DNA of 64,000 nt from Alphaproteobacteria bacterium (GTDB taxonomy: Bacteria; Pseudomonadota; Alphaproteobacteria; UBA9219; RFNS01), in the NCBI GenBank assembly GCA_016124955.1, contig WGMR01000002.1:62001-126000 (forward strand). Reading direction: 5' to 3'. Under the pieces are notes generated by a model, which made no database searches, was not told the DNA's origin, and saw only the letters and a list, made by a program, of their open reading frames with translations. A program made the translations under genes and the position numbers. This document shows, piece after piece, positions 35,407-37,854 of the stretch (position 1 is its first letter; each line of letters begins with the position of its first letter).

Positions 35407-37326
35407 TCAAGGGCTTGGCATGCCAAGGAAGCGCCGGGTCCGCCTGTGCTGCGGGTTCATGATGGCTCTTGTAATGTAGCTCGTGCCTTCGGGTGTTCTG
35501 GCGCATTTTGCCCATGATGGCGGAACAAACTTCATCGCGCCCTTAACCTGAATTTGCGTACAATTACGCAGCGGCCTGCACAACAACACATGATCCAGAC
35601 GTTGCCTCCGCCCGCGATTGACCGTGACATATTTCGGCAACGGCTTATTCCCGTAAGCGACGGCCAGAAAATCCACGACGCGCGAGTCGGCGGGCAAATC
35701 ATAAATCTCGCCGCGGTGATCGACAACACTAATGCCCGTATCTACGACTGTCGGCAGGTCACCCGTACCATTGCCATGGCCCCAAAGCCGCTCACGCACG
35801 CTTTGCATGCGCGCACGGTCTTGCTCGCTTGTGACCTGACCGGGAATTTTGTACTGCACGTGGGAAGCAAGGCCGTATTCGGCAAGCCGGTGCATCGCCC
35901 AGCTGCGGATCTGCACTTCGAACTTGCGGCCCTTGCCGTCCACCAGCACCGCGTGCAACGCCTGATACCCATTTGGGCTGCGCCGCTTCTGTACGGGGCA
36001 GCCCCAGTCATCAACACCGACATAAGGCGCATCCGCATGAATATAGTCAGTTATATCAACAATCTTCAGGCCGCTTTCCTTGAGCGCCTTGAGCGTCTTC
36101 CAGCAATCGCGTATGTCACCGGTATGCGTAAGATCCGATGCATTGTCCGCATCACCAACAACAACCCTGTAAGCCGTGCCATCATCCAGGTCCGCGGCAC
36201 CGTAGTCTGGCTTGTATTTTGGATGAAGAGGATTCCTTCGTTCCTGAATTTTTCCATATGCAGCGGCAACGCGCTTGACCCGGCCGCTAACCTGTGGAGC
36301 AAACCTCTGGCCTTTATGGGTACTCCATACATTGCCCTCCAGCGCTTCAAGGATACGCCTTTCGCCGGCTGCAATCATTTTGGCTCCGCCCTTGCCAAAC
36401 AATTTGCCGCTATACTGATCACCCGTCGGGTTGAAAAGCACCTCCATTTCCTGCTCCGTCCGTTCATAAGCGGACGGATCTCTGTACTTTAAAAGCGAGT
36501 CCTTGATTGCGCCAACCGCATCATACCAGCCGATATACTCGGCCATCGGAATGTACAGCTTTTCTGCATACAGAAGCATTTCATCCCGAATTCTTTTGTC
36601 CGCAATCTGATCAAGTGCTGAAAGGCGGCGCACCATTTCCGCGATCTTGATCGGAAAAACGCGAACATGCGGCGTGCGCAACATCATGGCCAGGTTCCGC
36701 GAAAAGTATTCGTTCTGCTTTTCCGGCTTCAGCTTCATCACATTTTTCAGTGACGGCATGGCGGTCATCAGGGATGCATCCCCGGCGAGCTCCAGCGCCT
36801 CGCTCATGGCGCCGGCAAATTGTTGATAGTCTGCGGAATCGCCGCGTGATTTCCGGTATGCCGCCCAGACCTCGCCTTCAATTCTATCTCTTAGATCGGG
36901 CCGGAAAGCCAAAATATTCTGGAACAGCGCCGCGATAACCGCTTCTGCTTTTGATTCCGTCCGGCCATCGAGATTAAGACGCGCGACAGAGGCCGCCGAA
37001 ATAAAATTATGTGTGCGGGAATTAAGGAAGTAAGCCTTCATATCTTTGCGTGAAGTCCAAAGATCCTTGGGCCTTCCAGTCAAGAAGGAACGGACGACAT
37101 TGCCGCCTCGTCTGATTTCACCATTCAGCCTAAGGGCGACTTTGGCGGCGGCACGCACCAGATCAATATCAATGTCGCGACAATAGTCCTCACAGTCATT
37201 GACAAGCTGCGTGATACTTCTGTCGGCACTGCCGGTGACGGACGCCCCGATATCACTGAAATCCAGTGAATCGTTGTGCGCAAAAATGTCATCCGCAATA
37301 ATCGGTGCGCCGGAGGTATGGTTCAT
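35407..37326 (-). CDS. Divergent RSH homologue with lost HD hydrolase motif, synthetase signature kept
   Basis: 639 residues. Collinear with long RSH but diverged. The region where the HD domain should be (about 40-240) has no HD pair: where Rsh has HDTVED it reads FQNILAFRP, and where Rsh has KLADRLHNMRTL it reads KIAEMVRRLSAL. The helical linker (AEKLYIPMAEYIGWYDAVG) is still recognisable. The synthetase block keeps G348-R349-K351, Y357-K359, D382 in DDGTAYRVVV, NGYQALH (452-458) and FEVQIRSW with E470. TGS follows (HRGEIYDLPADSRVVDF, 537-553); ZBD and ACT are missing. AGGTGAT lies before the start. It probably makes (p)ppGpp without degrading it, or is a regulatory pseudoenzyme. Confidence 0.88.
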   Translation of the reverse strand: MNHTSGAPIIADDIFAHNDSLDFSDIGASVTGSADRSITQLVNDCEDYCRDIDIDLVRAAAKVALRLNGEIRRGGNVVRSFLTGRPKDLWTSRKDMKAYFLNSRTHNFISAASVARLNLDGRTESKAEAVIAALFQNILAFRPDLRDRIEGEVWAAYRKSRGDSADYQQFAGAMSEALELAGDASLMTAMPSLKNVMKLKPEKQNEYFSRNLAMMLRTPHVRVFPIKIAEMVRRLSALDQIADKRIRDEMLLYAEKLYIPMAEYIGWYDAVGAIKDSLLKYRDPSAYERTEQEMEVLFNPTGDQYSGKLFGKGGAKMIAAGERRILEALEGNVWSTHKGQRFAPQVSGRVKRVAAAYGKIQERRNPLHPKYKPDYGAADLDDGTAYRVVVGDADNASDLTHTGDIRDCWKTLKALKESGLKIVDITDYIHADAPYVGVDDWGCPVQKRRSPNGYQALHAVLVDGKGRKFEVQIRSWAMHRLAEYGLASHVQYKIPGQVTSEQDRARMQSVRERLWGHGNGTGDLPTVVDTGISVVDHRGEIYDLPADSRVVDFLAVAYGNKPLPKYVTVNRGRRQRLDHVLLCRPLRNCTQIQVKGAMKFVPPSWAKCARTPEGTSYITRAIMNPQHRRTRRFLGMPSP

Positions 37327-37428
37327 ACATCACCTAAAATAACGCAAAATCAAATACAGGCAGGCTTTCGCCAGCTATAAAAAAGGCAAAACAAGCCTCA
37401 TATGCACATATAGATAGAAACGGGCGGA
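37327..37428 (-). promoter_or_regulatory. AT-rich leader between rpoZ and the RSH-like gene
   Basis: The 102 bp between the rpoZ stop and the RSH-like start is AT-rich compared with neighbours. On the minus strand AGGCTTGTTTTGCCTTTTTT, a short hairpin followed by a T run, could be a weak terminator for rpoZ. A good ribosome site (AGGTGAT) precedes the RSH-like ATG. Confidence 0.35.
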
Positions 37429-37854
37429 TCAGCGGTCGGTAATGTCCGCGTCTTCAAACGAGGCACCGCCGGAGGCCGGCATATCGCTGGCTACAGTTTC
37501 GGTGCCTTCTTCTTCGCCCATTTCCTCTTCGCTGATTTCTTCGTCAGCGCTGTCATCGTTGCCCATGACCCAGCTCTGTTGTTCGCCGGCCATCAGTTCT
37601 ACAACCTCTTCTTCGGGCTGGTCGGGCTCAACGCGGCGCTGCAGGCCCTTGATGAGGGATTCCTGAAGCGTTTCAAGCTCGAGCTTTTCTTCCGCAATCT
37701 CGCGCAGCGCGACGACGGGGTTTTTATCGCGGTCGCGTTCGACCTGCAGCAGCGCGCCGGAACCAATCTCGCGCGCACGGCGCGCGGAAAGAAGAACCAG
37801 TTCGAACCGGTTCGGAACCTGCACCACACAATCTTCAACCGTAACGCGCGCCAT
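37429..37854 (-). CDS. rpoZ: RNA polymerase omega subunit
   Basis: 141 residues. [30 protein letters not shown] is the conserved omega core with the [11 protein letters not shown] helix; a long acidic tail (residues ~70-141, rich in E and D) is an alphaproteobacterial feature. Omega helps (p)ppGpp bind RNA polymerase, and in this class rpoZ is usually directly followed by rsh; here the RSH-like gene lies in between. Confidence 0.95.

Follow-up and report, generated by a model that had tools for sequence, protein, structure and literature searches.

A second long RSH protein with a replaced hydrolase site, encoded at a seemingly exchangeable position between rpoZ and rsh in an alphaproteobacterial order

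Our analysis of a 64,000-nucleotide stretch of alphaproteobacterial DNA (the window) revealed an intact gene for a second long RSH protein, P0001, flanked by rpoZ and by an rsh that is itself complete and bifunctional; in P0001 the ligands of the HD hydrolase are replaced and the core catalytic residues of the synthetase are conserved. Related genes recur patchily in the order to which this genome belongs, and two congeners differ gene-for-gene at the same position. We assign a probability of roughly 0.6 to the reading, drawn from sequence comparison, that a lineage-specific second long RSH has turned into an accessory synthetase of alarmones (or one with an altered acceptor), with Rsh as its eraser, perhaps driven by conflict.

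The features of the locus are collected in Table 1. The paralogue is separated from rpoZ by 102 bp and from rsh by 32 bp (5 bp in one related genome, G003; record JAGOHT010000062.1, an Alphaproteobacteria MAG); frameshifted leftovers of C-terminal domains were excluded because of the short distance between its stop codon and rsh. The interval after rpoZ holds a weak terminator-like hairpin, and a stronger G+C-rich hairpin with a T-run was seen by eye at this interval in two other genomes (G004 and G008). The promoter scan of the locus gave nothing above chance, and Rfam gave no match. A gene for a NYN-domain protein (PF01936; 38251-38895, plus strand) stands divergent from rpoZ, and its counterpart lies beside rpoZ in nearly all readable loci of the order, at 75-86% identity.

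Table 1. Features of the locus and of related loci (positions in the window unless a locus handle is given; residue numbers of P0001).
Feature	Position	Strand	Basis
Hydrolase-dead long-RSH paralogue CDS (P0001), 639 aa	35407..37326	-	ORF; 7 other genomes with homologues at this site
rsh, complete bifunctional HD-SYNTH-TGS-HEL-CC-ACT, 771 aa	33059..35374	-	Pfam
rpoZ (omega subunit)	37429..37854	-	ORF, locus comparison
Pseudo-HD domain, residues 54-300	36427..37167	-	Alignment; HD-like helical fold in model matching SAH/Rel HD
Replaced HD motif, residues 135-141	36904..36924	-	Alignment
Replaced ADRLHN motif, residues 227-235	36622..36648	-	Alignment
Synthetase domain, residues 335-500	35827..36324	-	Pfam RelA_SpoT 347-492; conserved catalytic columns
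Synthetase R349/K351	36274..36285	-	Conserved catalytic columns
Synthetase D382	36181..36183	-	Conserved catalytic columns
Synthetase Y454/H458	35953..35967	-	Conserved catalytic columns
Synthetase E470	35917..35919	-	Conserved catalytic columns
Acceptor-loop insertion, ~20 residues (430-451); K297 and K304 equivalents lost	35974..36039	-	Alignment
TGS-like beta-grasp domain, residues 530-600	35527..35739	-	Model; structural match to 6htq
Helical domain, first helices, residues 603-634, then protein end without ZBD/CC or ACT	35425..35520	-	Model, structural match
Terminator-like hairpin, rpoZ-paralogue interval, weak	37383..37399	-	8 such sites in the region vs 3.7 expected
Paralogues at second site, by holA near dnaK/grpE (three genomes of one genus: G013, G023, G027)	L150:4485-6296, L095:3248-5200, L151:3900-4469	+, -, +
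Gene of a MarC-family membrane protein (PF01914), immediately following the paralogue slot, three congeners	L071:3491-4111, L072:9317-9937, L158:10395-11003	-, +, -

Apart from P0001 and Rsh, this 1.93 Mb, 99% complete genome encodes no RelA_SpoT protein. RelA_SpoT was the sole Pfam domain to pass in P0001 (E 4e-16, residues 347-492), its TGS lying under the threshold by sequence, and the neighbouring rsh product matched HD_4, RelA_SpoT, TGS, AH/RIS and ACT. The AlphaFold model of P0001 (pLDDT 74.5, pTM 0.76) comprises an HD-like bundle of helices, a synthetase of alpha/beta type, a TGS with a beta-grasp fold, and another three helices. Its HD and synthetase parts match the catalytic half of Rel (6s2u; Z 20.7 over 333 residues), and its TGS with the start of the helical domain matches B. 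subtilis Rel (6htq; Z 9.8, residues 529-631), evidence not wholly independent of Rsh, as Rsh rows were present in the alignment that fed the model. The model of the G008 paralogue, poorly resolved in its C-terminal part, shows the same HD and SYNTH fold (Z 22.6 to B. subtilis Rel), so that models of two very different versions of the protein match the Rel fold, and HD_4 is still detectable in the paralogues of G004 (1.7e-10), G014 and G003. With an HD fold and SYNTH in one chain, followed by TGS, P0001 belongs to the long-RSH superfamily: it is a long RSH in which a pseudo-HD domain, a synthetase and a TGS lead into the beginning of a helical domain, with no ZBD/CC or ACT.

The two catalytic sites were compared in an alignment of the ten full-length paralogues (pairwise identity 21-43%) with Rsh and with RelA and SpoT of E. 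coli, in which 345 columns were scored. The HDxxED ligands are replaced in all ten paralogues, which places them outside the bifunctional Rel/SpoT class ([HS]); in P0001 AALFQNILAF stands for TALMHDTVED, and IKIAEMVRRL for IKLADRLHNM. Its synthetase retains GRVK, D382, NGYQALH, FEVQIR and SHVQYK. In RelSeq numbering, the equivalents of R241, K243, D264, Y308 and H344 are invariant in the ten paralogues, and those of K251, Y299, H312, E323 and Q325 are kept in nine of them. The 14 synthetase-site columns show a mean of 86% identity to Rsh versus 22% for the other columns (p=5e-10), while the ten HD-site columns, at 16% (p=0.64), are no more conserved than background. Furthermore, synthetase-site residues make up 10 of the 18 columns in which conservation reaches at least 90% (Fisher p=7e-12). 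The retention of the synthetase site beside a hydrolase site at background level argues for a working monofunctional pyrophosphokinase rather than a pseudoenzyme, and catalysis by the paralogue is likely, to judge from these residues.

The acceptor side of P0001 is altered, with T in place of K297, S in place of K304 and A in place of S247 (same numbering), and the G027 paralogue has undergone further losses; together with the inserted loop, these changes suggest that the acceptor of P0001 may be other than GDP/GTP. At the RXKD/EXDD position, P0001 has T-D and the G002 paralogue R-N, and K is kept (K-D or K-N) in seven others (G003, G004, G006, G008, G013, G014 and G024). These results bear out an earlier note on this DNA, which had described a second, divergent RSH of 639 residues between the two genes, collinear with Rsh through synthetase and TGS, ending without ZBD and ACT, and deprived of its HD hydrolase; no intact HD site appears in the alignment. 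The statement of that note that the synthetase residues are kept stands for GRVK, D382, NGYQALH and FEVQIR, but not for some residues of the acceptor side.

The distribution of the gene was followed in 33 genomes of the order, most of them in fragmented assemblies, by a profile search of the family and subsequent reading by genomic position. Among the 26 genomes with rpoZ and rsh readable on one contig, an RSH-like ORF lies between the two in eight, from three families (G000, G002, G003, G004, G006, G008, G014 and G024); each rpoZ-rsh gap above 1 kb holds such a gene, and at the remaining 18 loci rpoZ stands beside rsh with a gap of 18-408 bp. The paralogues at the second site, by holA, share 31-55% identity with one another, while the rsh products of these genomes are 86-88% identical; the G023 copy is interrupted by a contig end. 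The order contains at least 11 such genes. The coupling of the paralogue to Rsh is not strict, since other genes intervene before rsh in G002 and G006 and the paralogue lies elsewhere in the three genomes with the holA site. In G002 the separating genes form, by eye, a sugar-nucleotide/glycosyltransferase-like cassette (L034:5158-13541), so that larger inserts can be accommodated in the slot. In G006 they are represented by a 459-aa ORF (L086:3699-5078, minus strand) with no Pfam or PADLOC match.

In a class sample of 386 genomes, a hydrolase-dead paralogue was recognised in none of the 381 outside the order, a count that very diverged copies could escape. A second profile match turned up in eleven of these genomes; they were judged from the extent of the match and the length of the ORF (G326 by reading) and were set aside as two Rsh-type matches (G231), split Rsh, short synthetase- or hydrolase-only proteins, and an HD-only RSH (G326). 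An insertion at this place, called unusual for alphaproteobacteria in the earlier note, is so in the class sample but recurs at 8 of 26 loci within the order. By tblastn, the phage and plasmid collections contained no relative closer than ordinary Rel/SpoT-like proteins (22-28% identity among the matches listed, some of the "phage" records resembling bacterial contigs). The viral-contig scan found nothing, and no defence genes were found near the paralogue. PADLOC matches to PDC-S33 were rejected as reflecting the shared RelA_SpoT domain, for which canonical Rsh scores higher.

In the tree, the branches of the paralogues are much longer than those of Rsh. On these long branches nine of the ten paralogues stand apart from RelA/SpoT and the G008 protein, with a branch length at the limit, is unplaceable; a single clade of all ten was neither established nor rejected (p 0.51). 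The paralogues of G002, G003 and the other member of family f1 fall into one clade, in line with the Rsh tree. Between G002 and G003 the paralogues are 43% identical and the rsh products 84%; between G013 and G027 the values are 31.5% and 88%. This divergence could be fast vertical evolution, and pN is below pS in the paralogue pairs other than G004/G008.

Fast vertical evolution cannot account for the difference between the congeners G004 and G008. Their flanking proteins are nearly the same (NYN 98.6%, rpoZ 95.7%, MarC 96.6%, rsh 97.2% identity) and the flanking DNA is about 87% identical, whereas the paralogues share 23.2% identity and give no blastn match. The DNA similarity stops 7 bp before the paralogue start codon and is back 1 bp before the start of marC, which in G008 overlaps the paralogue end. 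The paralogue has reached saturation at its synonymous sites (pS 0.79), with dS of 0.78 in rsh and 0.67 in marC. Since selection at the protein level does not speed synonymous change, the two versions share a deeper common ancestor than their flanks, by replacement or by differential loss from an old tandem pair. In G010, a third congener, the slot is empty, with 95 bp between rpoZ and marC and nothing in between. Hence the rpoZ-rsh locus seems to include a slot whose gene is exchangeable; replacement is seen in one genus, where differential loss of tandem copies could give the same pattern.

The paralogue family shares features with several known systems and fits none of them fully. RelA[hS] of beta- and gammaproteobacteria is likewise a long RSH with an inactive HD domain and a kept synthetase, accompanied by another RSH with a working hydrolase, and its HD replacement is similar (AALLFPLAD in E. 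coli, AALLYPPYA in G004). RelA[hS], however, is a full-length protein that is passed on mostly by vertical descent and does not co-occur with a Rel (PMC3153485). It has the complete C-terminus (TGS, HEL, ZBD, RRM/ACT) and an acidic EXDD-type motif and occurs with SpoT, whereas the paralogue stops after TGS and the first helices, has no such motif and shares its genome with one bifunctional Rsh. The likeness to the RelA/SpoT split drawn in the earlier note therefore holds for a dead HD domain beside a bifunctional Rsh, and does not extend to a protein that is truncated and hyper-divergent, occurs patchily and is swapped from one congener to another. RshB of Bacteroidetes, with a strongly diverged HD domain, and RshC of Bacillus, truncated in the helical domain and without CC and ACT (PMC3153485), are lineage-specific second long RSHs as well. 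They belong to different phyla and are both classed [HS], and a fixed slot beside rsh or a replacement between congeners is not reported for them; it is by these published descriptions that the paralogue is set apart. The toxSAS proteins (FaRel2, PhRel2) and CapRel have the SYNTH fold, and the donor-site set R, K, K, D with an acceptor Tyr described for FaRel2 (PMC11782079) is also that of the paralogues; the partner domain of CapRel is fast-changing, and Rsh-HD could parallel the SAH hydrolase that is the antidote in the FaRel system (PMC11782079). Contrary to the 639-aa long RSH with its pseudo-HD and TGS, these are short proteins with an antitoxin or a pseudo-zinc-finger, and no separate antitoxin ORF lies between rpoZ and rsh in the window. 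The family is best filed as a long-RSH variant that is hydrolase-dead, C-terminally cut, usually located beside rsh, and exchangeable. No alphaproteobacterial second RSH with a pseudo-HD was found described in the open-licence literature, subscription papers being outside the scope of the search.

In the proposed mechanism, the HD half would be retained as a fold devoid of catalytic ligands, with the synthetase half under selection. We infer that the paralogue most likely uses ATP to synthesise an alarmone, be it (p)ppGpp or a close relative, and that the neighbouring bifunctional Rsh would erase this product with its HD domain. A signal may be received via the variable outer parts (pseudo-HD, acceptor loop and TGS); RelA-style sensing of starved ribosomes is unlikely for a protein that reaches no further than TGS and the opening helices of the helical domain and has neither ZBD nor ACT. 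The gene would occupy an exchangeable slot, in which it is acquired or lost and in which strongly differing versions of this protein kind take its place, and such a slot suggests a fast-changing trigger or target, plausibly one in evolutionary conflict, for example with phages. A conflict role for the paralogue is plausible, although no defence genes near it, no mobile copies in the collections searched and no specific PADLOC model speak for it directly. Long RSHs have been characterised as core regulators that are rich in interactions and inherited for the most part vertically, with "a low propensity for HGT" (PMC3153485); the long RSH described here is gained or lost, and exchanged gene-for-gene, at one fixed place beside rsh, with its synthetase chemistry preserved. 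If active, the paralogue would give alphaproteobacteria an equivalent of the way in which RelA and SpoT divide their labour; should it make something other than (p)ppGpp, or be triggered by a phage protein, a housekeeping stringent-response locus would be linked to bacterial immunity.

An alternative without a conflict role is that the paralogue serves ordinary stress physiology as an accessory (p)ppGpp synthetase of RelA-like type, an Rsh duplicate specialised as RelA is, whose divergence reflects relaxed evolution after loss of the ribosome-binding domains. We hold this to be possible, at well under even odds. The architecture would follow the logic of RelA[hS] (PMC3153485), the gene adjoins rsh, the f1 clade mirrors the Rsh tree and is thus largely vertical there, and pN is below pS; relaxation nevertheless leaves unexplained the gene-for-gene replacement between congeners with saturated synonymous sites, as well as the patchy distribution and the altered acceptor side. 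No firmer than tentative is the opposite view of a conflict or defence effector, a pyrophosphokinase of the toxSAS/CapRel type (alarmone or tRNA) that would recognise phage proteins through its variable parts and would be checked by Rsh or by autoinhibition. The presence, absence and replacement of the slot gene within one genus and the FaRel2-like donor-site residues and acceptor Tyr are in agreement with it, as are the diversification of the CapRel sensor domain (PMC9712102) and the ability of an SAH hydrolase to act as toxSAS antidote (PMC11782079), but the surroundings are housekeeping genes, neither an antitoxin gene nor mobile copies were found, and the PADLOC match is to the shared domain only. 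Extended to the whole order, the same idea would make the rpoZ-rsh junction an exchangeable slot for conflict-shaped, hydrolase-dead long-RSH effectors, immune-type nucleotide (or tRNA) pyrophosphokinases with diversifying sensor parts and the housekeeping Rsh as built-in eraser, which we consider a doubtful, though possible, generalisation.

The pseudoenzyme raised as an alternative in the earlier note, catalytically dead and modulating Rsh as a heterodimer, is improbable. Its adjacency to rsh, the loss of the K297 and K304 equivalents in P0001 and the known interactions of RSH proteins with one another and with regulators would suit such a role, yet the catalytic synthetase columns are exactly what ten highly diverged proteins keep, and D264, E323, R241 and K243 would be needless in it. 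Still less credible is a decaying duplicate without function: the branches are very long and C-terminal domains are lost, but all ten full ORFs are open, catalytic residues are selectively retained, the gene recurs at one site and pN is below pS. The accessory synthetase with Rsh as eraser is thus the reading we prefer.

Two of the candidates set aside in the class sample deserve mention in their own right. In G231 the two Rsh-type matches are of near-equal score (C3:1450510-1451859 and C13:4930-6258), one of them in a shorter open frame of 462 aa. The 696-aa RSH of G326, from another order (L152:3871-5961, plus strand), carries HD_4 (2e-22) and TGS and no recognisable synthetase, and is flanked by ORFs that appear ParB-like and relaxase-like by eye, possibly belonging to a plasmid or an integrative element; it possibly represents the converse case, a mobile alarmone hydrolase.
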